From: Anaerolineales bacterium
GTDB lineage: Bacteria > Chloroflexota > Anaerolineae > Anaerolineales > Villigracilaceae
DNA length: 41,727 bases
Assembly (NCBI GenBank): GCA_023382575.1
Contig: JAHDWC010000011.1
Location: 1 to 41,727 of the forward strand
Reading direction: 5' to 3'
Part shown: positions 29,947 to 41,727 of the stretch, piece after piece
Position numbering within the stretch: position 1 is the first letter of the stretch
Layout of the letters: each line of letters opens with the position of its first letter
Notes under the pieces: model-generated
Told to the model about the DNA's origin: nothing
Databases searched by the model: none
What the model saw: the letters and a program-made list of their open reading frames with translations, nothing else
Translations under genes and position numbers: made by a program

Positions 29947-29987
29947 AAAGAGAACAGGTCACGTTTTGAAGCGTGACCTGTCTCTTT
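29947..29987. terminator. Bidirectional rho-independent terminator
   Basis: AAAGAGAACAGGTCACG pairs with CGTGACCTGTCTCTTT around loop TTTTGAAG, with one bulged base. It lies between convergent genes and shares its loop and stem-top pattern with the terminator at 24440-24467. Confidence 0.88.
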
Positions 29988-32553
29988 AAGGTTCATCCAA
30001 TGGACACATCAACGGTGCGCGTGGGGCACGATTGTAAACGTATCCTTCATCTGATGTAACAAAGACAACTACGGCATCGATAAATGGCGCGTAATAAGTA
30101 GTGTTCCAACATCCCAAAACCACCACATCGGTTGTGTGCAATGAAAACGGCGGCGGGTCGCCGGGGATGACCACGCCTTGATGTTGAGCATTATATGGAC
30201 CGATAACCGTCAGCACCAAGCGTCGATAATCGAGAGCGCGATAATATGTACTGCGGTCTGGTTCGCCTTCGTCGCTTCGATAATAACGGGGATAGAGCGC
30301 CTGCCCAACTGTGATCATTGCATTTGGCTGGGAAAGAAAGGCTGCTAGATCGTCGCGTGAATAACCAGATTGTTCCAACAACCCAGACTGTTCAAGTTCG
30401 GCAAGCGTTTCTTCTGTTGGGCGCACCTGATAACGCGGCTCGAAAAAGGCTTCTGAAGCAGGCAATAATGCGCCGATGCCTAATATAAGAATCAAGGCAG
30501 GAAATAGCTTGAAATATTGATTCCCAGTCAGCGGCTGAAAACTATTCACCGCAGCCACAGGCTGCTCTTCAACAACCCGTAATAATCCAGTCCACTTTAA
30601 GAACCAGCAGACTAATTGCAGTCCGCCTGCCAGATAGAAAAGATACATAACCCAATCCACTGGCGCGATATAACGACCGCCAGAGGTTAGTCCGAGAGAG
30701 TTCGTAAAAAGATATGCCAAAAAGAGGAGAATCGGAAAAAGGGTCAGCCCCTGGCTACGTTTCCAGATTGCGCCAACTCCAAGAGAAATCAGGGCCAGGT
30801 TGGCGATCAGTAGTCCTACTCCAACAGACCCTATCTGACCTTCGTTCCAATCTCGTTTCCAATAAGGGGTATCAGCTTTGACCGTATTCCAAAGATCGTC
30901 AAACGTGAGCGACAATGGAAAAGAAACAATGGAAGTGGTGATATTGTGGACAAAATGATTCACAATTGAACAAGGCAAAGAATTACATACCGGGGCAGCC
31001 GTCTCTGGAACGGAGCGCTGCCTGAGTCCTACTGTCCGCGTTTGTGCCACATCCGCATCCTGCGGCGGGATGTAGGCATCACCAAGGATGCCATAGCGAT
31101 AACGAAGCAAAAGCTCGATACGGGAATAGTACATATAAAACATTGGAATGCCTTTGGTCTGATTTCGTACTTCCCAAGGCAGGGTTACAGTCAGCAAACC
31201 CAACAGTAACAAGAGGGCGATGGTGACAAATTGCTTCCAATGTATTCGCACAACAAATGGGATAAACACCAATGCAATCGGCAGAAGCGTTAGTGCATGG
31301 GTGCGGACCATGAGAGTTAATCCGAAAGTCGCCCCAGCCCAAATCAAATTTGTAGGCTTGTTTGGCTCTTTTAGCCATCTCAAAAAGAAAAACATGAAGA
31401 TGGCAATCCCAATCGCAGTAGGGAAATCCGTCAGCACCATCTTCGGGCTGGCGGTATCGATCCACTTTGAAGCAATAAGGGTGTTGACGCCGCGTATCGC
31501 GAGCAAGACCCCTGCAGAAGCGCCAAGAGCGCGGCTGTGTAATTCCCTTCCGAGCAAGTAAATCACCGCCGGGAAGACCGCATAGACAGCCGCTTGAACC
31601 GCCATGATGACGCTGTAATCCTGTCCAAACAGAATATGCAGATAAGCCAGAAAAGCACTGTACAACGCACGATCAAAATATTGGCTGTTGAACAAACCCT
31701 GCCCGATCAAAGCATACTGCGCGCCCATGTCAAAGGTCGCGCCATCAGAGTAGGGATAAATGACATTATCTGCAGTATCGGGCATGAAATAATTGGGGAC
31801 AAGCGGCTCACGCGCCCAGAACCAGGCAGCGACGATCCACAACCCGATAAAGACGATACCGTCGAACCAGATCTGTTTTTTCCCGGTAATCTTCGCTTCA
31901 GAACCAAGGACAAGTGCGCCGATCAGAAGTGAAAATAAAACCTGTAATCCTAAAATTGGTACACCCGCGCCATACCAATAATCCTCAGGCTCGCGATAGC
32001 CAATGCCCGTGGCAAGCATCAAAATCCCCAGCAAGATAAACAAACCAAAGATAACGCCGCTGACTTTAAAAATGATCCAGTCCGTTGAATGAAGCGATTG
32101 TTTCGTAATCCGTTTTCGCTCAAGGAAAAGGATTGCGGTTGCAACAGCACTGGTCACAGTCAGCCAGATGATGATCGGGAACAACCTCTGCACATAACCT
32201 GTCAACACACCAAGTCGATAAGGTGGCATGAAGAGGATAATCCAACAAATCAGGAAAATTGCAAGTGAGATGAATAGCGCAGCATTCCCCGGACCTCGCG
32301 GCTGGGTGAAAAAATCCCAAAGGTGTTGTGAACGCTGAGGGTTATGGAACAGTTTCCAGGTCAGGAAGAGAAGCGCGATGCCAAGCATGAGCAATCCCCC
32401 ACCAAGGATAATCCGCTCCAGCGAATATCCAAAAAGAAAGGCATTCTTCGGATCTGATGGCGAACCGAGCGTGGCGAACAAGGCAACAAACGCCCCAAGC
32501 GTTACGAATAGACTGAAAGCGGGCATTCGTCGGGAGAATTCAATTCGAGGCAT
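29986..32553 (-). CDS. Large GT-C-like membrane glycosyltransferase
   Basis: An 855-residue integral membrane protein with roughly 15 or more hydrophobic helices. After five to six N-terminal helices an outward segment (NYFMPDTADNVIYPYSDG, then TFDMGAQYALIGQG) precedes a GT39-like block with LHILFGQDYSVIM, FPAVIYLLGREL and TASPKMVLTDFP. A soluble C-terminal part of about 150 residues has YSRDDLAAFLS and a final VFVTSDEGYVYNR segment. The pattern fits polyprenyl-phosphate-sugar-dependent transferases, though catalytic residues are not certain. Its start overlaps the end of the WecA-like gene by 14 nt, so it is co-transcribed with the polyprenyl-linked glycan initiation gene, which supports a role in the same pathway. 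Confidence 0.75.
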   Translation of the reverse strand: MPRIEFSRRMPAFSLFVTLGAFVALFATLGSPSDPKNAFLFGYSLERIILGGGLLMLGIALLFLTWKLFHNPQRSQHLWDFFTQPRGPGNAALFISLAIFLICWIILFMPPYRLGVLTGYVQRLFPIIIWLTVTSAVATAILFLERKRITKQSLHSTDWIIFKVSGVIFGLFILLGILMLATGIGYREPEDYWYGAGVPILGLQVLFSLLIGALVLGSEAKITGKKQIWFDGIVFIGLWIVAAWFWAREPLVPNYFMPDTADNVIYPYSDGATFDMGAQYALIGQGLFNSQYFDRALYSAFLAYLHILFGQDYSVIMAVQAAVYAVFPAVIYLLGRELHSRALGASAGVLLAIRGVNTLIASKWIDTASPKMVLTDFPTAIGIAIFMFFFLRWLKEPNKPTNLIWAGATFGLTLMVRTHALTLLPIALVFIPFVVRIHWKQFVTIALLLLLGLLTVTLPWEVRNQTKGIPMFYMYYSRIELLLRYRYGILGDAYIPPQDADVAQTRTVGLRQRSVPETAAPVCNSLPCSIVNHFVHNITTSIVSFPLSLTFDDLWNTVKADTPYWKRDWNEGQIGSVGVGLLIANLALISLGVGAIWKRSQGLTLFPILLFLAYLFTNSLGLTSGGRYIAPVDWVMYLFYLAGGLQLVCWFLKWTGLLRVVEEQPVAAVNSFQPLTGNQYFKLFPALILILGIGALLPASEAFFEPRYQVRPTEETLAELEQSGLLEQSGYSRDDLAAFLSQPNAMITVGQALYPRYYRSDEGEPDRSTYYRALDYRRLVLTVIGPYNAQHQGVVIPGDPPPFSLHTTDVVVLGCWNTTYYAPFIDAVVVFVTSDEGYVYNRAPRAPLMCPLDEP

Positions 32554-33610
32554 TAGGATTTCCTGCGGGCTGATCGTCGAGCGTGGGTTGGCGTTCGAGC
32601 CAAAGGAGAAACATCAAACTAAAAAAGATGGTGACGAAAAACAAGGTCAACGCGAGCCAGGGCGGCAGATAAAACGTGAGGTACGCGACGAGGCCGATGC
32701 CGAGTGCAGCCGCATGAGTGAGAAGAACAGCAATCTTCGGCTGAAATCCCAGCATCACCAAGCGATGGTATGTATGGTCGCGTCGTCCGCTACCGATGCG
32801 TTGTCCGCGGCGGAAACGAGAGAGGACTACCAGAGTTGTGTCAAAGATCGGGAGTCCCAGCAACATGATGGGAACGATCCATGAAGATTCGGGGCTCCGG
32901 TTAAGAGGATTATACAGGATGCCAAAGGAAGCGAGCAAAAAACCGATCGTCTGCGCACCAGAATCGCCGAGGAAAAAACGTGCGGCGAGTCCGTTCCAGA
33001 TATACAAGCCAAAACTGACTCCGAGTAAAGCAGCCGACCATTGCGAAAGAATCGGTTGACCAGAGAGGCTGGTAGCCACCGCAAAAAACGCCGAAGCAAT
33101 CGCACCAATCCCTGCGACGATGCCATCCATACTATCAATCATGTTCAGGGCATTTGTAATGCCGATCAACCAGAACAAGGTGATGAAAATATTCAACGCT
33201 TCAGCCACTTCGATGGGAAGGATACTCCCGGCAAAAAGGATCGTCACGAACTGAACCCGCACCCCAAAAGAAATCAGAATCATCGAAGCGATGAATTGCC
33301 CGATCAACTTCGGGATCGCCGACAATCCTTTGAGGTCATCCCAAAGCCCAAAGGCAAAGATCACGCTTGCCCCTGCCAGGACCACCCACACGTCATGGCT
33401 TACCGATGCGCGAAAAAGAAATGCCATACCTCCCAGCACGGCAACGATCAAAATTCCGCCTGCCAGTGGGGTAATACGAGCATGTTGTTTATGCGGTGCA
33501 GAACCAGGAACGTCCAAAAGGTTGAGGCGCTCCGCCAGAAAAGAGGCGGGACGTCCCAACACGATGCTAAGCAAAAAGCTGATGCCAAAAGAGAAAAATG
33601 GATTACCCAT
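32540..33610 (-). CDS. WecA/TagO/MraY-family polyprenyl-phosphate sugar-1-phosphate transferase
   Basis: A 356-residue membrane protein with about ten helices. Family motifs are in order: PHKQHARITPLAGG at about residue 40, the Mg-binding FGLWDDLKGL at about 88, NALNMIDSMDGIVAG in the middle, FLGDSGAQTIGF at about 215, and the substrate-loop Arg/His motif DHTYHRLV near 278. Such enzymes move a sugar-1-phosphate from a UDP-sugar onto undecaprenyl phosphate, starting synthesis of wall teichoic-acid-like polymers, O-antigen or S-layer glycans. MraY itself is less likely in this glycan locus. The ATG at 33610 is preceded by TAAACT about 10 nt upstream and no clear ribosome-binding site. The GT-C gene downstream overlaps by 14 nt. 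Confidence 0.9.
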   Translation of the reverse strand: MGNPFFSFGISFLLSIVLGRPASFLAERLNLLDVPGSAPHKQHARITPLAGGILIVAVLGGMAFLFRASVSHDVWVVLAGASVIFAFGLWDDLKGLSAIPKLIGQFIASMILISFGVRVQFVTILFAGSILPIEVAEALNIFITLFWLIGITNALNMIDSMDGIVAGIGAIASAFFAVATSLSGQPILSQWSAALLGVSFGLYIWNGLAARFFLGDSGAQTIGFLLASFGILYNPLNRSPESSWIVPIMLLGLPIFDTTLVVLSRFRRGQRIGSGRRDHTYHRLVMLGFQPKIAVLLTHAAALGIGLVAYLTFYLPPWLALTLFFVTIFFSLMFLLWLERQPTLDDQPAGNPNASN

Positions 33611-33677
33611 ACCGGGAGATAGTTTATCAGAGTTTGGATTTATAAATATTGGATGTGCCCCATTTCTCTAAAGAGAG

Positions 33678-34439
33678 TCAACGTATACGTCGTGCCTGTC
33701 GATATACAGATGAGTTAAAAAATCGCGTTGCACTTTGAAGATGCAGAAAAAGATATCGCAATTCTCTACGGCTTGACCGCTTCGCATCGTGCCTGACTTG
33801 AGCCTTAGCGTCTACCAGAAGTTTCATTCCTCGAAGTCGGAGGCGGGTGCAAAAATCCACGTCTTCAAAATATAGACGGAACTTTTCATCCATACCACCC
33901 AATTCACGGAATATTTTTGAAGGCATAAGCCAAAACATCCCTGCAATCCAATCCGGGCAGATCAATCCATTTTCATCTGGCGACAAAGCTTTGAAGGTAT
34001 AGCCAGGGAAACGACGGCGGATAATTTCCAATGGCGAGGGCAGCGTCCGATAGGAATCCTGCACAATCTCCTCTTCATCAATTATTTGGGGGGCAATAAG
34101 GTCATTTCGATTTGTATGAAGACTATCCAGTAGAACTCCAAAAGTTGGTTGAATGAAAAATAAATCGGGATTAAGAATCGCAAAATATTTTCCACGTGCC
34201 AGGGTAAAGGCTTGATTATGATTCCTCGCAAATCCTTCTTGCTTCTGATTCCTTAGTATTTGAAAATCTCCCCAAGCAGAAGGGTCAAAGTCGGGTAAAT
34301 TATTTTTCAGGTTATCGGTGAGAATTAATTGATAATGCCCAGTCTCCGGTTCGTGCCTTTGAATACTTGCAAGCAAATGTCCAACCTTTTCTGCATCGCC
34401 GTGACTCACAATCGAAATTGTAATAAGAGGATCTATCAT
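33678..34439 (-). CDS. Family 2 glycosyltransferase
   Basis: A 253-residue GT-A-fold enzyme. The first strand ITISIVSHGD, the second strand YQLILTDN, the GFARNHNQAF helix and the metal-site region AILNPDLFF fit family 2 rhamnosyl- or glycosyltransferases. The acceptor-side motif YFEDVDFCTRLRLRG includes the usual catalytic-base acidic pair. No membrane helix is present, so it acts at the cytoplasmic face on a nucleotide sugar and a lipid-linked glycan. Its ATG overlaps the end of the next upstream GT2 gene by four bases, so they are co-translated. Donor sugar is unknown; the heptose operon upstream makes a GDP-heptose donor possible but untested. Confidence 0.88.
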   Translation of the reverse strand: MIDPLITISIVSHGDAEKVGHLLASIQRHEPETGHYQLILTDNLKNNLPDFDPSAWGDFQILRNQKQEGFARNHNQAFTLARGKYFAILNPDLFFIQPTFGVLLDSLHTNRNDLIAPQIIDEEEIVQDSYRTLPSPLEIIRRRFPGYTFKALSPDENGLICPDWIAGMFWLMPSKIFRELGGMDEKFRLYFEDVDFCTRLRLRGMKLLVDAKAQVRHDAKRSSRRELRYLFLHLQSATRFFNSSVYRQARRIR

Positions 34440-35416
34440 CTCTTATTCCTTTGCAGAAATTCTGTCAGTGGTTCGAATATCCCGGTTGACATAACACGTA
34501 AAATCTCATTCGGTTTAACTTTCATCTTCTTCTGAATAGTTTTTCGCTTTTCAAGTATCCTTGGCAACCCACGCATAGCATCCGCGACCGCCTTCCAAAT
34601 CACTGGTCCCTGTCCACGGAAGGTAAGGTAAAACAAAAAAAACAGCACAGCCAAAATATGCAATGGGAGAAATATCCAAATATACGGTGATGGCATATTT
34701 TTGACAAATGTCCAAATCATATTCCGATACCCATGATATACCGAGAAGTCACTGCGTTTTCCCGTGCTTGCGCTGCCTACATGATGCACAATCGCCTCTG
34801 GCACATATAGACATTTCGCCCCATTCAAACGCAGACGAAATCCAAGATCAACATCTTCAAAGTAGGAAAAATAATCCTCATCAAATCCGTTCACCCTTAG
34901 AAAGTCCTCGCGGCGATACATAGCAGCGGCAGCACAAGGACTGAATATCTCTTTTTGTTCAAGTCCATATTTATCCGCTGACAGGTTATATCCATTGCGC
35001 CAAGCCAGTCCACTGATGTGATAGGCATCACCAGCACCATCCAATAAATGCGGAGCATTGTATTGGATTTGTCGCGAAGAAAATGCAGAATATTCAGGGT
35101 TCTGCTCTGCTGCACGAAGAAGGTTTGCAAGCCAGTCTGGCTCTGGGTAGGCATCCGCATTGAGAAGGACGATCCACTCGCCGCGTGCAAGGCATGCGCC
35201 GAAGTTGTTGGCGGAGGCAAAGCCAAGATTTTTATTTAAGGATTGATAGGTCCGTACTAATTTGTTTTTGACAAAATCCCCTGCTGATCCATCATTATCC
35301 ATGATGATCACTTCGAAATCCTGTACCGATTGTTCTTCCAAACAAAAAAGACAGCGCAGTAAGTACTTCGCGCTGTTATAGGCAACCAATATCACGGAAA
35401 CTTTATGGGCGTTCAA
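34436..35416 (-). CDS. Family 2 glycosyltransferase with C-terminal membrane helix
   Basis: A protein of about 326 residues from a TTG at 35416. It has VSVILVAYNSAKYL, FEVIIMDNDGS, NKNLGFASANNFG, the metal-site ILLNADAYPEPDWL and the base motif YFEDVDLGFRLRLNG. A hydrophobic helix follows at about 255-280 (IWIFLPLHILAVLFFLFYL core), placing it at the membrane. The frame extends to an ATG at 35473 inside the transaldolase gene; that start lacks a ribosome-binding site and adds 19 residues before the first strand, so the TTG is preferred, though the call is not certain. It probably acts with the downstream GT2 in extending a lipid-linked glycan. The donor is unknown. Confidence 0.85.
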   Translation of the reverse strand: MNAHKVSVILVAYNSAKYLLRCLFCLEEQSVQDFEVIIMDNDGSAGDFVKNKLVRTYQSLNKNLGFASANNFGACLARGEWIVLLNADAYPEPDWLANLLRAAEQNPEYSAFSSRQIQYNAPHLLDGAGDAYHISGLAWRNGYNLSADKYGLEQKEIFSPCAAAAMYRREDFLRVNGFDEDYFSYFEDVDLGFRLRLNGAKCLYVPEAIVHHVGSASTGKRSDFSVYHGYRNMIWTFVKNMPSPYIWIFLPLHILAVLFFLFYLTFRGQGPVIWKAVADAMRGLPRILEKRKTIQKKMKVKPNEILRVMSTGIFEPLTEFLQRNKR

Positions 35417-35441
35417 GTAACACTTTCTGGAGAATCTTATC

Positions 35442-36158
35442 TTACAAATTGAACCCGGCTTTAACTGCATCATCGCGGAACATTTTTACCGTATCGAGAG
35501 AATATTCATCCAAATTCTTGTCGACCAGAGATAATTTTTTAAGAATATCATGTGTCACAGTAATTACATGACAACCAATTTCATTTGCATGGAAAATATT
35601 CAACAGTTCACGTGGACTTGCCCAGATCAGTTCCTGTTTTTCATTCGGCGCCATGATCTCAACGGCACGCTTCATGAGAGGCATGGGATCCCGGCCAGTA
35701 TCCGCAATGCGACCGGCAAAAACAGAAATATATGAGGGGACATGATTGTCCAATGCCCTCGACATCTCGCTCACTTGATCAAGGGTCATCAAAGCTGTGA
35801 CGTTCAACTGCACACCTTTAGCAGCAAGCTTGCGAATCAATTTTGACGAGGATTCACGGCGAGTATTGGTTACGGGTATCTTGACATAAACGTTCTTACC
35901 CCATTTCGCTATTTTCAGTGCTTGACGTTCCATTTCATCGAATTCATCTGAAAATACTTCAAATGAAAAGGGACGATCCGAGATGTTTTCCAGAATTTGT
36001 CGAGCAAACCCTTCGTAGTCTTTGATACCGCTTTTATTCATCAATGTCGGATTTGTTGTAAAACCGGCGATGTATTTGTTCTTGTGGAGTTCCAGAATCC
36101 CATCCAAATCAGCGCCATCGGCGAAAATCTTTACTTTCAAACCATCCAAAGCAGTCAT
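35442..36158 (-). CDS. Transaldolase-family enzyme in the heptose operon
   Basis: A 238-residue enzyme, close in size to the short FSA/TalC branch. FADGADLDGI and GFTTNPTLMNKSG form the first strands, the Schiff-base Lys is in NVYVKIPVTN, then come VQLNVTALMTLDQV, YISVFAGRIADTGRDP and VITVTHDILKKL. The family forms sedoheptulose 7-phosphate from fructose 6-phosphate and erythrose 4-phosphate, or cleaves fructose 6-phosphate. Sedoheptulose 7-phosphate is the substrate of the GmhA-like isomerase encoded two genes upstream, so a dedicated supply role is a good inference. GAGGAA precedes the ATG by 5 nt. It lies 14 nt after the GmhB-like gene in the same operon. Confidence 0.88.
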   Translation of the reverse strand: MTALDGLKVKIFADGADLDGILELHKNKYIAGFTTNPTLMNKSGIKDYEGFARQILENISDRPFSFEVFSDEFDEMERQALKIAKWGKNVYVKIPVTNTRRESSSKLIRKLAAKGVQLNVTALMTLDQVSEMSRALDNHVPSYISVFAGRIADTGRDPMPLMKRAVEIMAPNEKQELIWASPRELLNIFHANEIGCHVITVTHDILKKLSLVDKNLDEYSLDTVKMFRDDAVKAGFNL

Positions 36159-36172
36159 ACGTTCCTCTATAT

Positions 36173-36706
36173 TTATGAATGTAGAATAATATCCGCGAGT
36201 GTAGACATGTCTTCAATGACAAATTCAGCGGGTAGCCCATTATAGATCTCATCGTAATGATAATCTACAAACACCGTCCGCAACCCGGCACCCTGACCGG
36301 CAGAAATGTCTTTCCAGCGATCGCCGACCATCCAGCTTTTGGCAAGATCGACATTATATTCTCTCGCGGCATCGAGGATCAACCCCGGTTTGGGCTTGCG
36401 ACATGAACAATTGTCTTTGTCATCATGATAGCAAGTGAAAATGGCTGTAACAGGCAATTTCACTTTGATATACGCATTAATCTCCTCCACTGCTTCGCGT
36501 GATTGGGTACCACGTGATACATCCGGCTGGTTGGTCACGCCGATAAGTACATATCCGGCGTCAGCAAGTTTCTTTAGCGAAATCATGGCGCCTGAGATGA
36601 TTTCCAACTCGTCCAGCGAAGTAGGTGGATAAGGGGCACCGTCCCGCACTACAGAATGATTGATGATTCCGTCTCGGTCCAGAAAAACAGCAGGAACACT
36701 AGGCAT
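36173..36706 (-). CDS. gmhB: HAD-family D-glycero-D-manno-heptose 1,7-bisphosphate 7-phosphatase
   Basis: A protein of 177 residues from the ATG at 36706, whose A is shared with the stop of the SIS gene. The HAD nucleophile motif is AVFLDRDGIIN, followed by GVTNQPDVSRG, the zinc-site pattern CYH-x6-CSCRKPKPG, and the last acidic motif MVGDRWKDI. The CxH...CxC loop is characteristic of GmhB and separates it from histidinol phosphatase only partly. The reaction expected here is removal of the C7 phosphate from heptose 1,7-bisphosphate. The neighbours GmhA-like, HddA-like and HddC-like make the GDP-heptose route the best reading. Confidence 0.88.
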   Translation of the reverse strand: MPSVPAVFLDRDGIINHSVVRDGAPYPPTSLDELEIISGAMISLKKLADAGYVLIGVTNQPDVSRGTQSREAVEEINAYIKVKLPVTAIFTCYHDDKDNCSCRKPKPGLILDAAREYNVDLAKSWMVGDRWKDISAGQGAGLRTVFVDYHYDEIYNGLPAEFVIEDMSTLADIILHS

Positions 36707-37302
36707 TACTTGACAGACTCCCATTTGGTCTGGGCGGCTTTTAACTTGGGGTGCGTAACCAATAGATGATGTACAACAGATTGAAACGCTTCTGTATGTG
36801 GGGTGATGTGATCCGAGTGAACGGTTGGGATGATAACACAGGCATCTGCCACCTGGGCAGTGTACCCGCCATCACGGCCAACAATGCCAACCACTTTAGC
36901 ACTGACCTCTTTGGCATATTGCAGCGCCATTACCAGGTTCGGGCTGACATTCTTTTCCAAATTACCACCGCCAACAGAGAATACCATAATAGCGTCCTTG
37001 GCATTAAGGCGGCTGCCCTCCAGCCACGCTTTGAAAACTGATGCCCAGCCTTCATCATTCGTACGGGCAGTCAATTCAGAGACATTATCAGTCGGCGCAT
37101 AGGTCTCTATCCCCACGATCTTGCGAAAATCATTAACAGCATGAGAAGCATTTGCCGCGCTGCCACCCACTCCAAGCACGAACAATCTTCCACCTTGTGA
37201 ACGCGCTTCGAGGATTACATCCGCCATTTTTTCCACAGACGCTTCATCGAGTTTGTTAAGAATCTCGATGGTTTCTGCTATAAATGTTTTTGTAAATGAC
37301 AT
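36706..37302 (-). CDS. gmhA: Sedoheptulose 7-phosphate isomerase (SIS domain)
   Basis: A 198-residue SIS-fold protein. FVLGVGGSAANASHAVNDFRK (core GGSAANASHA) and VSELTARTNDEGW match the GmhA branch found in S-layer and capsule heptose loci, and MVFSVGGGN forms the second phosphate-binding loop. HTEAFQSVVHHLL carries the Gln and His positions of the catalytic helix. The reaction is conversion of sedoheptulose 7-phosphate to D-glycero-D-manno-heptose 7-phosphate in the cytosol. A strong AAGGAG lies 6 nt before the ATG. It begins 3 nt after the HddC-like gene stop and overlaps the phosphatase gene by one base. Another sugar-phosphate isomerase function is possible but less likely. Confidence 0.9.
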   Translation of the reverse strand: MSFTKTFIAETIEILNKLDEASVEKMADVILEARSQGGRLFVLGVGGSAANASHAVNDFRKIVGIETYAPTDNVSELTARTNDEGWASVFKAWLEGSRLNAKDAIMVFSVGGGNLEKNVSPNLVMALQYAKEVSAKVVGIVGRDGGYTAQVADACVIIPTVHSDHITPHTEAFQSVVHHLLVTHPKLKAAQTKWESVK

Positions 37303-37305
37303 GGC

Positions 37306-38031
37306 TTACTCCTTTTTCAAAAATTTTTCAGGGTCCCTCGTAAGAAGATCGTCCAGCTCTTGCAAACCACCGAAGGAACCAATTTCATAAAACCGTTCCG
37401 ACACATCATATGTCAGCAGTTTTTTTTCCAAAACCAGTTTCTGGTACACCTCTACCAAGTCAACAGCCTGACCATCCTGCAATCCACCAAATACAGACGG
37501 GACGAACATCCCCAATCCATAATCTATGTATTCCATGCGCGGGTTCTTACTCTTTTTGTCGTACTGAACGATCCTGCCTTCCGCCATTTCAACATTGCTT
37601 GTATCCCATTTGCCGAGGTTTCGGTAAATGGTCATTAGAGCAGGTAAACCTCCAACCTCAAAATGCGCCTGAATGGCGGCATAGTCACAGGGGAGATAGG
37701 AATCCCCGTAGAGCACGAAAAACGATGAGGTCAGCAAGGGAAGCGCTTTGCGAATCGCGCCACCTGTACCCAGGGGAGAGCCACCGTCGAATACATAATC
37801 CACTTCCATGCCAAACCGGCGGCCATCCCCCACATGCTCGCGCAGCATATACCCGCGATACCACGCACAGATAATCACCCGCCGGATGCCATGCGAATAC
37901 AACAACCGTAATTGATGATCAATGAATGGACTTCCACCCACTTCAACCAGCGCTTTGGGAATCTTTTCTGTAATCGGGCGCAGGCGTGTTGCCAGCCCTC
38001 CTGCCAGAATAACGACAGGGAACAAGTTCAT
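37306..38031 (-). CDS. hddC: D-glycero-alpha-D-manno-heptose 1-phosphate guanylyltransferase-like
   Basis: A protein of 241 residues from the ATG at 38031, which overlaps the kinase stop as ATGA. The frame runs open another 60 codons upstream, but that extension lies in the kinase gene and does not resemble the family. It has the nucleotidyltransferase signature VILAGGLATRLRPITEKIPKAL (core LAGGLATRLRP), then FVLYGDSYLP with the metal-binding Asp, and a late MEYIDYGLGMF motif. The expected reaction is heptose 1-phosphate plus GTP to GDP-heptose plus diphosphate. Sugar and base preference are inferred from the operon; mannose-1-phosphate or other nucleotidyltransferases share the motifs. Confidence 0.85.
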   Translation of the reverse strand: MNLFPVVILAGGLATRLRPITEKIPKALVEVGGSPFIDHQLRLLYSHGIRRVIICAWYRGYMLREHVGDGRRFGMEVDYVFDGGSPLGTGGAIRKALPLLTSSFFVLYGDSYLPCDYAAIQAHFEVGGLPALMTIYRNLGKWDTSNVEMAEGRIVQYDKKSKNPRMEYIDYGLGMFVPSVFGGLQDGQAVDLVEVYQKLVLEKKLLTYDVSERFYEIGSFGGLQELDDLLTRDPEKFLKKE

Positions 38032-39008
38032 CCGATCATCACCTTGGATCCTTCGAAATCGAATCGGAAGCGGACTTCTTCCAGTCCAACTTTCGATATT
38101 GCATGGCGAAGTTGATTGCGATCTTTGGCATAGAACATGAGAAAACCGCCACCGCCCGCCCCGACTAGTTTCCCGCCCAAGGCCCCGTTCTTCATGCCAA
38201 GATCGTACCATTCATCGATCTGCGGGTTACTCATACCTTTGGATCGCTTACGTTTGTGTTCCCAATGCTCGTGCATTAACACACCAAACTCAGAAGTGTG
38301 CCCCCTTATCAAAGCCTCCTTGCTGCGCAAACCCAAATCTTTCACATAGTGAAGATTGTTCAGCATTTCTTCATCCATCTCCTTGCTGCGTCTATCTTGA
38401 TCCTTCAAAATGGCAGAAGCGCTGCGAGCAAATCCAGTAAAAAAAAGCAGGAGGTTATCTTCCAAATCAAACAGGGTATCAATACTAATAGGAAGCGGAT
38501 ATGCCTTTACCGAATCGTCCTTATTGAACTCAAAGCAAGTAATTCCACCATATGCAGCAATGTACTGATCCTGTTTGCCAATTGGCTCCTTCAAAATATC
38601 GATCTCAATTTTACAAGCCAGTCGAGCCAGTTCATCCGGCAAAATCATACGACGGCGATGAGCGTACAAAGCTTTCAACAAAGCAGTCGTGAAACTTCCG
38701 GAAGAGCCCAATCCTGTACCAGCAGGTATATCTGCAAGAGTAGTTATCTCGATTTGAGGCGTCTTGAATTCAAGTATTCGGAGCGCTTCTCGCAGAATAG
38801 GGTGTTGCACTTCGTCAACCTTTTCTGCCTTTTCAAGACTTGAATATTTCAAGAAAATTCCGGGAATAAAGGGGCGCATAGTAGTCACATAGACGTACTT
38901 ATCAATCGCCGCCGCGATCAGAAATCCCTCATAATCACGATAGTAAGAGGGAAGGTCAGTACCTCCTCCACCCAGAGTAATTCGCAACGGGCTACGACTG
39001 ATGATCAT
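38028..39008 (-). CDS. hddA: GHMP-family D-glycero-alpha-D-manno-heptose 7-phosphate kinase
   Basis: A 326-residue GHMP kinase. SRSPLRITLGGGGTDLPSYY (core LGGGGTDLP) begins the protein, the ATP-binding motif PAGTGLGSSGSF lies at about residue 96, and the closing GALGGKLVGAGGGGF motif is near 280. The GGGGTDLP start is typical of the HddA/fucokinase-like branch. The expected reaction is phosphorylation of heptose 7-phosphate at C1 to give the alpha-1,7-bisphosphate, the branch leading to GDP- rather than ADP-heptose. The ATG at 39008 lies 17 nt inside the oxidoreductase gene, and the kinase overlaps hddC by four bases. The operon context strongly supports the assignment. Confidence 0.9.
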   Translation of the reverse strand: MIISRSPLRITLGGGGTDLPSYYRDYEGFLIAAAIDKYVYVTTMRPFIPGIFLKYSSLEKAEKVDEVQHPILREALRILEFKTPQIEITTLADIPAGTGLGSSGSFTTALLKALYAHRRRMILPDELARLACKIEIDILKEPIGKQDQYIAAYGGITCFEFNKDDSVKAYPLPISIDTLFDLEDNLLLFFTGFARSASAILKDQDRRSKEMDEEMLNNLHYVKDLGLRSKEALIRGHTSEFGVLMHEHWEHKRKRSKGMSNPQIDEWYDLGMKNGALGGKLVGAGGGGFLMFYAKDRNQLRHAISKVGLEEVRFRFDFEGSKVMIG

Positions 39009-39993
39009 AACCAGAGTCCTTGTAGATTTTTTCGACTACAAGCAAGGCTTCACGAGCATCGTTCAGATTTGCTGAGGGTGTCCTTCCAAGCCGGATGTCT
39101 TCCAGAAACTCTTCAAACTCAAGTTTCCAGGAATTATCACCACGCGGATATTCCCATATCGTTGTATCGGGCGGACCCATCTCGGGCAGCATTTTATAGA
39201 AGGATAGTTTCTCCACACCATAACTGCCGCCGAGCCCCTCAATATGGAGTTTGGCATCACGACCGTATATTTCCATTGAGAAGAGGTTTTTCCACTCGGT
39301 GCAACTGACATGGAGAAATGCAGTTTGTTTTGTCTCCGTTTTCAGGATCATAAAGCCGTTATCATCCACTGGCATGTCCCAAAAATAGGTGTGGGCAAAA
39401 CCGTGTATCTCAGAAAAGTTTCCTAAAAAACAGCGAGAGAGGTCAATGAGATGAACACCTTGGTCGATCAACTCACCGCCGCCAGAAAGAACCGGGTTTG
39501 CGCGCCATTCACGGTCATAACCTTTGCGTCCGCCATGACCGTACCGTCCGCGAATGAACATCAATTCACCCAGTTCACCTGTCTCCAATAACTCATGCGC
39601 TTTTAATAAGGCGGGATGATATCGATGATTGAATCCCACCCGCACTTGAACGCCTATTTTGTCTGCGGCCGCAATCAAGACATCCAACTCCTTCACATTG
39701 CGTGCTGCAGGTTTCTCAACCAGCACATGTTTTCCCGCATTGACCGCCGCGAGGCTGGCCTCGACAAGCGCATCATTCGTAGTAGCAACCACAACAATAT
39801 CCACATCATCACGCTGAACCGCGGCACGCCAATCGGATGTTCCAACACAGTTGGGAAATCCTGCAGCCATAGCTTTTGCACGTACCTCGTTCACATCCGC
39901 ACAGACAACCAGGTTTGTCTCCGCGAGCGCCTTCGAACGTTTCTGCCCGATCAGCCCACACCCCAAAATAGCAATGCCCAAAGTTTTTGTCAT
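38992..39993 (-). CDS. Gfo/Idh/MocA-family oxidoreductase
   Basis: A 333-residue enzyme. An N-terminal Rossmann domain starts with GIAILGCGLIGQKR, has VVVATTNDAL and the catalytic HVLVEKPAARN segment, and the C-terminal alpha/beta domain has RVGFNHRYHPALL, GGELIDQGVHLIDL (core DQGVHLIDL, with the active-site His) and the late WKLEFEEFLEDI helix. The family oxidises or reduces sugars and nucleotide sugars with NAD(P). Substrate is unknown; a sugar modified by the neighbouring SDR or dehydrogenase is likely. The ATG overlaps the SDR stop as ATGA, with GGGGGGATG upstream. It lies in the middle of the glycan operon. Confidence 0.88.
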   Translation of the reverse strand: MTKTLGIAILGCGLIGQKRSKALAETNLVVCADVNEVRAKAMAAGFPNCVGTSDWRAAVQRDDVDIVVVATTNDALVEASLAAVNAGKHVLVEKPAARNVKELDVLIAAADKIGVQVRVGFNHRYHPALLKAHELLETGELGELMFIRGRYGHGGRKGYDREWRANPVLSGGGELIDQGVHLIDLSRCFLGNFSEIHGFAHTYFWDMPVDDNGFMILKTETKQTAFLHVSCTEWKNLFSMEIYGRDAKLHIEGLGGSYGVEKLSFYKMLPEMGPPDTTIWEYPRGDNSWKLEFEEFLEDIRLGRTPSANLNDAREALLVVEKIYKDSGYDHQS

Positions 39994-40868
39994 ACATCCC
40001 CCCAGTTCATGCCTCGATCCTTTGGAATAATACGGCGTAAAGTATAGATATCGGTCTTTTTCATTTCATCTACATGCTCCGAGAATGTATCCCAAGGATC
40101 CCACACCGCGCTGATGAGTTTTCCAGTCATACCATCGCTTTCGGCAGAAGCGAGGAACACACATAAATCGGCTCCGCGCTCCAATGGAACGCCACCATCA
40201 TTCTTCTGTTTCAAAGATCGCTCGTAGAATCCCCTGCCAACCTTTTCAGGTCCCGCTTCCAACACTTCATCCAACAACCGGGTATTGAGCGCACCAGGGG
40301 CAATGGAGTTCACATCAATACCATCCTCACTCACCTCACCAGCAAGCGTTTCAGCAAAACGCACAATAGCAGCTTTCGATGCTGCATAAGCGCTGATGAA
40401 GGGGAGTGGCGCGGTTGCCCCACCACCTGAAAGTTGGATGATCTTCCCGTATTTATTCATGCGGAAATGCGACAAAAACGCCCTTGCCATCAAGATCGAA
40501 CCGAACAGATTAACTTCAATCGCTTGCACCCATTCATCCCAATCGACCTCTTCGATGCGTCCCTTCGGTCCATATACTCCTGCATTGTTTACCAAAATAT
40601 GGATCTGTGAGAATGTTTCTAAAGCGCGGGATGCGACGCGGTCAACATCCTCCCGTTTTGAGACATCCGCCCGCATCACTTCGACCTTTTGACCTGGTTT
40701 GCAAAGACGTCGGAGATGCTCCTGCACTTTGAGCAGTTTCTCCTCATCCCGCGCGCATAAGAATAGATTCGCCCCAGCCGCAATATATGCTGTTGCTATG
40801 GCTTCCCCCAAGCCCTGATTTGCGCCTGTAACCACGGCGGCGCGCCCATCCAGAGACCATGGTGTCAT
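39990..40868 (-). CDS. Short-chain dehydrogenase/reductase
   Basis: A 292-residue SDR. The cofactor motif TGANQGLGEA is at about residue 14, the ILVNNAGVYG motif at about 90, and the catalytic Ser-Tyr-Lys set in QLSGGGATAPLPFISAYAASK (core SAYAASK). VNSIAPGALNTRL follows. The absence of an Asp right after strand 2 (LFLCARDEEK) is compatible with NADP use. The C-terminal extension of about 45 residues beyond the usual end (WDPWDTFSEHVDEMKK onward) is somewhat unusual. It probably oxidises or reduces a sugar intermediate in this glycan operon; the substrate is unknown. The ATG overlaps the upstream dehydrogenase stop as ATGA, so the genes are coupled. Confidence 0.87.
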   Translation of the reverse strand: MTPWSLDGRAAVVTGANQGLGEAIATAYIAAGANLFLCARDEEKLLKVQEHLRRLCKPGQKVEVMRADVSKREDVDRVASRALETFSQIHILVNNAGVYGPKGRIEEVDWDEWVQAIEVNLFGSILMARAFLSHFRMNKYGKIIQLSGGGATAPLPFISAYAASKAAIVRFAETLAGEVSEDGIDVNSIAPGALNTRLLDEVLEAGPEKVGRGFYERSLKQKNDGGVPLERGADLCVFLASAESDGMTGKLISAVWDPWDTFSEHVDEMKKTDIYTLRRIIPKDRGMNWGDV

Positions 40869-41727
40869 TTGATAGTTTTTCCTACAGAAACGTATTTTAT
40901 CGCAGGCAAGGCTTCCACACTTTTGGCAAGGAAACGATTCACATCCAATACATACGGCGCTTTCATCGCAGAGACCACCACGCTCATATCCGTCTCACGG
41001 TATTCAGGCCATTCAGTGGCTACGATCAGGGCATCCGCTTTTTGAACGGCATCCAAGGCAGATGTGGTGATCTGCACTTTTTGCAATTCATCCGGCAGAT
41101 TCTTAACAGCTGGGTCATGAGCACGGACTGTCGTTCCTTGTTCCAAAAGCCATTTACACAATTCAACTGCGCTCGACCGGCGCAGAGTGTCGGTGCCTGG
41201 TTTGTAGGTTAACCCCCACACAGCAACCGTTTTGCCTTTCAAACTCCCCAGCAGCTGCATGAGGCGACGCCTCGCCCAATTTTTGTGAGCATCGTTGCTC
41301 GATTTAATGGCAGGAAATAACTGAACCGGCACATCATACTGTTCGCCTAATTGCGTTAGGAAGGCGACATCGCGTGCAAGGGTACCACCTGCAAAGGCTC
41401 CACCGGGTCCCAGATATGCCTTGGAACCGATGCGGGCTTCAGATTTTAAGCCGCGTTCCACTTCCTTGGCATCCGCGCCAACCTGCTCACAAATGGCGGC
41501 AATCTCATTGATGAACGTGACCGATGTTGCCAGAAACGCATTGAGGGCATGTTTTGTCATTTCAGCTGATTCAACAGACATCCATTCGATTCGATCTGTG
41601 AATGGAGCCAGCAGATCGGCAAAGACTCTCTGGCTTTCTTCATTTCTAACACCGATCACTACACGGTCAGGTTGTGTAAAAACGGATATGGCTTTCCCTA
41701 ACCGTAAGTTCTCAGGCGAGCAAGAGA
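40865..41727 (-). CDS. Nucleotide-sugar dehydrogenase-like protein lacking the catalytic Cys (partial, 5' end outside window)
   Basis: The frame is open to the window edge; the visible 286 codons begin in the first domain with SPENLRLGKAI and PDRVVIGVR, matching the NPEFLREGxA and PDRxVIG segments of UDP-glucose/GDP-mannose dehydrogenases. The middle helix HALNAFLATSVTFINEIAAIC and the C-terminal domain with KGKTVAVWGLTYKPGTDTLR, VRAHDPAV and LIVATEWPEY are clear. The catalytic-loop motif, usually GFGGSCFPKD, reads AFAGGTLARD, so the catalytic Cys is replaced by Thr. Full four-electron oxidation to a uronic acid is therefore doubtful. The GTG at 41659 is an internal codon, not the start. It is co-transcribed with the SDR by ATGA overlap. 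Confidence 0.85.
   Translation of the reverse strand, partial: SCSPENLRLGKAISVFTQPDRVVIGVRNEESQRVFADLLAPFTDRIEWMSVESAEMTKHALNAFLATSVTFINEIAAICEQVGADAKEVERGLKSEARIGSKAYLGPGGAFAGGTLARDVAFLTQLGEQYDVPVQLFPAIKSSNDAHKNWARRRLMQLLGSLKGKTVAVWGLTYKPGTDTLRRSSAVELCKWLLEQGTTVRAHDPAVKNLPDELQKVQITTSALDAVQKADALIVATEWPEYRETDMSVVVSAMKAPYVLDVNRFLAKSVEALPAIKYVSVGKTIK

Follow-up and report, generated by a model that had tools for sequence, protein, structure and literature searches.

What does a nucleotide-sugar dehydrogenase make when the catalytic Cys of its second oxidation step is missing? This question is raised by a dehydrogenase gene at the edge of a 41,727-nucleotide stretch of DNA from an Anaerolineales bacterium of the Chloroflexota (GenBank assembly GCA_023382575.1, contig JAHDWC010000011.1, here C11, positions 1-41727), which is called the window in the following. 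In the deduced protein, a Thr stands at the position of the Cys used by UDP-glucose dehydrogenases (UGDHs) and related enzymes. We found that the protein belongs to a clade in which this replacement is general, that LmbL from the lincomycin biosynthetic gene cluster is a member of this clade, and that the corresponding genes are accompanied by a recurrent set of partners belonging to enzyme classes that make C7 or C8 sugars. The Thr protein, a member of the UGDH superfamily, is very probably an LmbL-type two-electron enzyme, and on balance we favor the view that it works in a long-chain sugar pathway of the kind proposed below.

The stop-free dehydrogenase frame (Table 1) codes for 286 amino acids and includes YLGPGGAFAGGTLARDVAFL. 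Its loop reads YLGPGGAFAGGTLARD, in which AFAGGTLARD replaces the GFGGSCFPKD of the family. Alignment with the solved UGDHs 3gg2, 4a7p, and 2y0d by phmmer places the loop Thr on their catalytic Cys and thereby bears out the earlier note on this DNA, which had reported a Thr (codon ACC) for the catalytic Cys in an otherwise Cys-free loop. The fragment passes the nucleotide sugar dehydrogenase model TIGR03026 (213.7 bits; cut-off 189.8) and the central and C-terminal Pfam domains of the family; the truncated N-terminal domain scores narrowly below its threshold (26.8 vs. 27). Since the contig stops inside the gene, about 145 residues encoded by its 5′ part are absent from the window, and a query with a full-length sibling did not find the 5′ end, which the earlier note had hoped to obtain, elsewhere in the assembly. 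This sibling, from locus L065, shares 88-89% identity with the fragment over their common part, has an identical loop, and scores 325.4 bits with TIGR03026. Because the sibling shares the loop and 96 rows of the clade alignment described below carry the Thr, a sequencing error is a very unlikely source of it, and we discarded both this explanation and that of a lone mutation. A substitute Cys was sought as well: the loop has none, and the Cys in the ICEQVGAD helix is also found in the canonical enzyme of the same genome (L001) when the two are aligned.

A clade profile (A2) built from eight relatives gave 319 matches in species genomes, from which the best 80 loci were retained. All 80 carry Thr in the Cys column; since the 80 were taken from the top of a list of 319 relatives ordered by their similarity to the clade, and one of the two peptide patterns behind them contains PENLRL, itself part of the signature, this count describes the clade and not the superfamily. 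The 80 loci come from 16 named bacterial and two named archaeal phyla, with two loci lacking a phylum name, and the Thr enzyme is also present on plasmids of Lawsonia intracellularis and Rhizobium and on contigs of a viral collection. An alignment of 128 sequences, a few of which are near-copies, has 96 Thr (the clade) and 31 Cys (the comparison enzymes) in this column, and one short piece is gapped there. In a quick tree from all columns, which includes the window fragment, one branch with an SH-aLRT value of 97 separates 95 Thr from 31 Cys rows. When the signature columns and the loop were removed (quick tree of 40 Thr and 31 Cys rows, with the L065 sibling standing in for the window), the Thr group, including five LmbL-type proteins, still lay on one side of a branch with SH-aLRT 97. 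Judged by this alignment with family members, the GGTxARD loop marks a large conserved clade, an idea the earlier note had put forward.

Within the phylum of the window, a sample of 400 genomes yielded 30 fetched loci, nine with the Thr loop (the window included) and 21 with the Cys loop. The enzyme is patchy in the genus of the window, with a match at E ≤ 1e-100 in two of the 24 other genomes of this genus examined. Forty-four genomes in a 396-genome sample of the phylum to which a Mycolicibacterium carrier belongs have a match at E ≤ 1e-72, counted by similarity whatever the loop; the centre of the sample itself does so at 57% identity and the remaining 43 at no more than 40%. The best match among named phages, again by similarity whatever the loop, has 35% identity.

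A comparison of 229 enzymes lists 18 invariant residues with their roles (PMC4794789). Cys260 serves the second oxidation, Tyr10 the hydrolysis of the thioester, and Asp264, Lys204, and Asn208 the first oxidation; Thr118, which in addition holds the active water in the first step (PMC4794789, PMC3184952), is invariant in these 229 sequences, and Tyr10 is present in 98% of them (PMC4794789). Counted in the 128-sequence alignment and given in SpUGDH numbering, Cys260 is replaced by Thr in 96 of 96 clade rows, the window included. Thr118 is replaced by Gln and Tyr10 by His in all 94 clade rows that reach these positions, and Gly9, the second Rossmann glycine, by Trp in 92 of 94. Further changes concern Gly257 (Ala or Ser, 93/96), Phe142 (Asn, 95/96), and Glu145 (Leu, 94/96). 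Pro140, Glu141, Glu201, Lys204, Asn208, Gly258, Asp264, Asn287, and Arg244 are unchanged in all 96 rows, and the remaining listed invariants vary in a few. The window fragment starts just before Pro140, and the changes at Gly9, Tyr10, and Thr118 therefore rest on its relatives. By alignment, then, the Thr clade has lost the nucleophile and the hydrolysis residue and has kept Lys204, Asn208, and Asp264 for the first oxidation. Because of the part that Thr118 has in holding the first-step water, losing it is a change not confined to the second step.

The fold is that of the superfamily. The L065 sibling was modeled with a mean pLDDT of 94.2, and its model superimposes along its entire length on UGDH structures, best on 3gg2 (Z score 44.9, root-mean-square deviation 2.0, 417 residues). 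The canonical UDP-glucose, GDP-mannose, and UDP-ManNAc 6-dehydrogenases covered by TIGR03026 thus share this fold as well as Lys204, Asn208, Asp264, and Glu141 with the Thr clade, but they possess the catalytic Cys, Tyr10, Thr118, and Gly9, all four of which the clade replaces, and they have different neighbors. At alignment index 406, the 96 clade rows show 67 Ala, 23 Pro, and six Gly, compared with Gly in all 31 Cys-type rows. Ala at this index is described as a mark of GDP-mannose dehydrogenase (PMC4794789), which offers a weak hint that the nucleotide handled by the Thr clade may be GDP.

These residues bear directly on the question of whether the enzyme might still perform a four-electron oxidation, by way of another nucleophile or a hydrated aldehyde, and yield a uronic acid. 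The intact fold and first-step residues would allow it, and the C276A variant of human UGDH oxidizes added aldehyde (PMC3184952). Tyr10 and Thr118, which serve thioester hydrolysis and bind the active water, are replaced along with the nucleophile, and the loop offers no other Cys; we regard this as the least probable of the explanations considered. The residue changes, together with the presence of LmbL in the clade, make it likely that the oxidation is of two electrons only, as the earlier note had considered.

Neighboring genes were compared between the Thr loci and control loci with a Cys-type enzyme, the latter mostly from the phylum of the window plus E. coli. A partner was counted as present when it scored >60 bits anywhere in the locus, room was measured downstream, and only loci with enough sequence were counted; loci L004, L006, L156, L037, L122, L123, L160, and L166 and the short-flank copies L007-L013 and L034 were dropped beforehand. 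A short-chain dehydrogenase/reductase (SDR) was found in 86 of 87 Thr loci, a Gfo/Idh/MocA oxidoreductase in 78/80, a GHMP kinase in 67/74, a nucleotidyltransferase in 60/70, a SIS isomerase in 50/65, a HAD phosphatase in 46/59, and a transaldolase in 46/55. The corresponding figures for the control loci are, in the same order, 0/29, 1/17, 0/17, 1/17, 0/16, 0/16, and 0/16. Since the profiles were seeded from the same Thr loci, these scores are generous to the Thr clade. A search with LmbM of the L216 cluster (see below) gave a homolog immediately upstream of the Thr dehydrogenase gene for 71 of the 90 loci that have room, mostly at 35-42% identity over about 300 residues, and for none of 27 control loci. 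The commonest gene order, in lincomycin terms, is LmbM-L-[SDR]-Z-P-O-N-K-R. Several partners are fused in single open frames: nucleotidyltransferase and isomerase in L076, phosphatase and transaldolase in L080 and L088, and SDR and dehydrogenase in L095 and L104. In the latter two (L095 8906-11284; L104 2878-5202), the SDR domain is N-terminal to the Thr dehydrogenase, and another SDR gene lies downstream.

This neighborhood weighs on the possibility that the Thr enzyme works by itself as a C6 epimerase, oxidizing its substrate transiently and re-reducing it, so that it would be neither a net dehydrogenase nor a dehydratase. Such redox-neutral use of bound NAD is plausible and would fit a separate SDR following it, but an LmbM-type epimerase already stands upstream in most loci, which leaves this explanation improbable.

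Published gene tables outline octose roles for LmbR (transaldolase), LmbN (isomerase), LmbP (kinase), LmbK (phosphatase), and LmbO (guanylyltransferase), followed by LmbM, LmbL, LmbZ, and LmbS (PMC12945683, PMC4351081, PMC7014725), and GDP-octose is converted into GDP-lincosamide by LmbM, LmbL, CcbZ, and CcbS (PMC12945683). A search with the kinase of the window in 392 genomes of one large-genome genus gave eight genomes with a match at E ≤ 1e-25. Five of these eight Streptomyces-type regions contain homologs of the HAD, dehydrogenase, SIS, Gfo/Idh/MocA, GHMP, nucleotidyltransferase, and transaldolase proteins in this order, and in L216, the sole region checked, the gaps were confirmed to be filled by epimerase and aminotransferase genes. 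On its gene content L216 is the lincomycin cluster, an identity given to L216, L225, and L226. The flanks of L216 encode an LmrA efflux protein (1077 bits; model cut-off 850), an LmbU-family regulator (246 bits; cut-off 125), a gamma-glutamyltransferase, a luciferase-like (F420-type) enzyme, and an ABC-F protein; the cluster itself follows the lmb gene order and includes a TldD/PmbA protein. Its SIS gene has, judged by eye and with no Pfam carrier-domain call, a carrier-protein-like N-terminal extension as described for LmbN. In L215, which we take to be a celesticetin-like relative, the Gfo/Idh/MocA protein carries, by eye only, a tail similar to that described for CcbZ.

The L216 dehydrogenase, LmbL, reads LPGAAFSGATLRRD and likewise has Thr for Cys, in the loop SGATLRRD. 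LmbL and four relatives share Trp9, His10, Gln118, Asn142, Leu145, and Arg263 with the Thr clade, and in the quick tree these five LmbL-type proteins fall within it, beside the long-branched L131. The lincomycin cluster thus has a dehydrogenase of the same clade with the same Thr and shares the LmbM, Z, P, O, N, K, and R homologs with the relatives of the window. It differs in having the aminotransferase LmbS, matched in just two of the 80 loci, in place of the SDR of the Thr loci, and in the loop motif GAT vs. GGT; moreover, LmbR and LmbP are not the closest matches of the transaldolase and kinase from the Thr loci. Across the eight Streptomyces-type regions, no open reading frame fell to the SDR profile. 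L217, L218, and L219 (Streptomyces-type) represent a further, third type of Lmb-like cluster, in which the dehydrogenase loop reads AGATLHRD; they stand apart from L215 and L216 in the tree. Lincosamide-like clusters on Streptomyces plasmids were considered as well; of the neighborhoods of two Streptomyces matches and one Rhizobium match, none fits. The LPS genes of Coxiella, also considered as a parallel, contributed nothing to the interpretation.

Since the known member LmbL already carries the Thr, the enzyme type is known. Among the titles and abstract openings listed, with the subscription literature mostly outside the search, we found no description of the gene set with the SDR, of its distribution across many phyla, or of the Cys-less clade.

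In work by Wang and co-workers that appeared in PNAS in 2020, LmbL is said to catalyze the 6,8-dehydration of GDP-octose, LmbM the 6-epimerization, and CcbZ the 4-epimerization. Since the gene set is that of a C7 or C8 sugar and LmbL belongs to the clade, the carbon oxidized by the Thr enzyme is most likely the secondary C6 hydroxyl, so that the product would be a ketone and not an aldehyde; it is from the reported function of LmbL that we infer this C6 oxidation. A ketone cannot be oxidized further; the Cys and the residue for thioester hydrolysis would therefore be unneeded, and a missing Cys is what one would expect. In the pathway that we propose, the transaldolase would make a long-chain ketose phosphate (octulose 8-phosphate, as for LmbR), which isomerase, kinase, phosphatase, and nucleotidyltransferase would turn into GDP-octose. 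The LmbM-type epimerase would act on C6, and the Thr enzyme would use NAD+ to oxidize the C6 hydroxyl of GDP-octose, or possibly of a heptose, to the ketone. With an octose as substrate, loss of the 8-hydroxyl and transfer of the hydride back to C8 would perhaps follow, yielding a 6-keto-8-deoxy sugar in a redox-neutral 6,8-dehydration. The Gfo/Idh/MocA protein would epimerize C4, and the SDR would reduce the C6 ketone at the point where lincomycin producers transaminate with LmbS. We offer 6,8-dehydration followed by SDR reduction tentatively, as a course that the reaction could well take.

The earlier note had thought, among other possibilities, of a dialdose, released after a single oxidation of the primary C6 hydroxyl of a hexose-nucleotide and then processed by the SDR and the Gfo/Idh/MocA enzyme. 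Consistent with such a stalled reaction, human UGDH with the C276A replacement is unable to complete the reaction from UDP-glucose (PMC3184952). Nevertheless, the partner genes are of classes that make C7 or C8 sugars and LmbL lies inside the clade, which together render a dialdose very improbable. Both oxidoreductases do belong to the same gene set as the Thr enzyme, in line with the idea of the earlier note that they might process its product.

Several observations weigh against the proposed C6 oxidation in an octose pathway. Trp takes the place of the second Rossmann glycine in 92 of the 94 rows, so that NAD binding by the Thr enzyme is an assumption. Identity to LmbL is at most 41%, with a median of 35% over the 80 loci, so that specificity may differ, and since its neighbor L131 in the quick tree is long-branched, the exact place of LmbL is unsure. 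The deepest Thr branches have a weak LmbM homolog or none (24% identity in L124, 27% in L130, and none listed for L131), and an LmbM-like epimerase scoring >100 bits occurs somewhere in four of 29 control loci. L117 has no partner within 21 kb, L107 has the SDR only, and L060, L097, L100, and L116 hold just part of the gene set; in L110, the sequence ends with the dehydrogenase. Two further points concern chain length. With the kinase profile, LmbP types reach 131-200 bits and the references 201-350; with the transaldolase profile, LmbR types reach 76-127 bits, a Staphylococcus-type protein 343, and a Streptomyces-plasmid protein 335. For the nucleotidyltransferase, the profile is ambiguous between Lmb and reference types.

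These last scores are best weighed together with the possibility that the sugar is a heptose. In this case, the transaldolase would supply sedoheptulose 7-phosphate, the SIS, GHMP, HAD, and nucleotidyltransferase enzymes would convert it into GDP-D-glycero-manno-heptose as in Campylobacter, and the Thr enzyme would form a 6-ketone, to be reduced by the SDR with inversion of configuration. Transaldolases usually yield a C7 sugar phosphate. Among solved structures, named heptose enzymes are the nearest relatives of the kinase and the isomerase and rank second for the nucleotidyltransferase, and the kinase scores are closer to non-Lmb kinases than to LmbP. Of the references, E. coli GmhA and GmhB and a Vibrio isomerase alone are named heptose enzymes; the remainder are loci that lack LmbL and were classed as heptose-type by their gene content. 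The kinase scores among the references are 234-257 for loci without LmbL, 350 for an uncharacterized Rhizobium kinase, and 201 for Vibrio.

A plain heptose pathway had been our first reading; it was weakened, and became an alternative, because the LmbM homologs and the lincomycin cluster turned up. Isomerase and phosphatase are closer to LmbN and LmbK than to E. coli GmhA and GmhB: the SIS profile gives 96-106 bits on LmbN types compared with 40-69 on references, and the HAD profile 142-250 bits on LmbK types compared with 98-139. The window proteins stay below the NCBIfam heptose equivalog cut-offs for HddA (169.2 of 600), HddC (76.6 of 300), gmhA (55.7 of 209.45), and GmhB (NF006506; 118.5 of 178). 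The GDP-D-glycero-manno-heptose pathway of Campylobacter (GmhA, HddA, GmhB, and HddC) has the classes of SIS isomerase, GHMP kinase, HAD phosphatase, and nucleotidyltransferase in common with our gene set, but the latter adds the transaldolase and the LmbM, LmbL, and LmbZ homologs; the consulted parts of PMC10680097 name no transaldolase or MocA enzyme for Campylobacter. In L214, a locus with SIS, HAD, nucleotidyltransferase, and GHMP genes, no homologs of the dehydrogenase, the Gfo/Idh/MocA protein, or the transaldolase were found. Gene by gene, GDP-octose fits more of the set than GDP-heptose does. We therefore think that the substrate sugar is probably an octose and consider the heptose version unlikely, although the leading alternative.

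Returning to the octose pathway, it is possible, and we say this with yet more reserve than we do of the dehydration, that the octose pathway of lincomycin is one of the branches of an ancient, widespread route, in which bacteria of many phyla, along with certain archaea and phage-like contigs, produce a GDP-8-deoxy-octose for surface glycans, with an SDR-made 6-hydroxyl in place of the 6-amine and the Thr enzyme as C6 oxidase/6,8-dehydratase. If so, a sugar known chiefly from one class of antibiotics would be a common surface building block, rare C8 nucleotide sugars could readily be obtained with its enzymes, and where the lincosamide sugar came from would become a testable question. Generic names such as "nucleotide sugar dehydrogenase", as used in Lawsonia, imply a uronic acid that the Thr enzyme probably does not make. 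The clade also represents a natural experiment in the loss of the second oxidation, in which the nucleophile, the hydrolysis Tyr, and the water-binding Thr were changed and the main residues of the first step kept.

Downstream of the dehydrogenase in the window, open reading frames for the SDR, the Gfo/Idh/MocA protein, the GHMP kinase, the nucleotidyltransferase, the SIS isomerase, the HAD-IIIA phosphatase, and the transaldolase follow in this order, overlapping or no more than about 20 bases apart (Table 1). The isomerase gene is the sole SIS_2 match in the genome, and the transaldolase is one of three. The position of an LmbM homolog falls past the contig end; the L065 sibling locus has one at 558-1520.

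Table 1. Features of the putative long-chain sugar locus in the window.
Feature	Position	Strand	Remarks
LmbL-type nucleotide-sugar dehydrogenase homolog, C-terminal 286 aa	40865..41725	-	5′ end cut off by the contig end
Active-site loop AFAGGTLARD	41369..41398	-	Thr codon ACC at 41381-41383, at the catalytic Cys position
Classical SDR oxidoreductase (TGANQGLG, YAASK)	39990..40868	-	Start overlaps dehydrogenase stop; proposed C6-ketoreductase; occupies the place of LmbS
Gfo/Idh/MocA oxidoreductase (EKP motif)	38992..39993	-	LmbZ homolog, 38% identity over 300 residues
GHMP sugar 1-kinase	38028..39008	-	Homolog of LmbP and HddA
Sugar-1-phosphate nucleotidyltransferase	37306..38211 (longest open reading frame)	-	LmbO/HddC homolog; likely start ~38031, overlapping kinase stop
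SIS-domain sugar-phosphate isomerase	36706..37302	-	Nearer LmbN than E. coli GmhA
HAD-IIIA sugar bisphosphate phosphatase	36173..36724	-	Nearer LmbK than E. coli GmhB
Transaldolase (TIGR02134 over cut-off, VKIPV motif)	35442..36158	-	LmbR enzyme class; nearer Staphylococcus-type

The gene set was also met on mobile elements. Plasmid 3 of the intracellular gut bacterium L. intracellularis (NC_008014.1, 6580-31440; L041) holds it, with the kinase annotated as "galactokinase". The viral-collection contig IMG/VR 3300032053_012243 (L036/L123) carries most of the set, with genes for the nucleotidyltransferase, phosphatase, transaldolase, isomerase, two epimerases, the kinase, and the Thr dehydrogenase; its SDR and Gfo genes are distant, with 27-29% identity. 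The window kinase also matches 58 Rhizobium plasmid records; for the listed records in which the gene set is absent, the match is at 44.8-46.0%. In one of them (Rhizobium sp. C104 plasmid, 98572-115537; L202), the kinase adjoins a HAD protein, a SIS protein, an SDR, and a glycosyltransferase in a separate, unexplained sugar locus.

Further down the same strand of the window, at 29986-35473, lie genes for two family-2 glycosyltransferases and, by the impression that their sequences give, a MraY/WecA-like membrane protein and an 855-residue membrane protein, which suggests a lipid-linked glycan locus. It is from these two glycosyltransferases and the MraY/WecA-like protein that a use of the sugar in surface glycans would follow.

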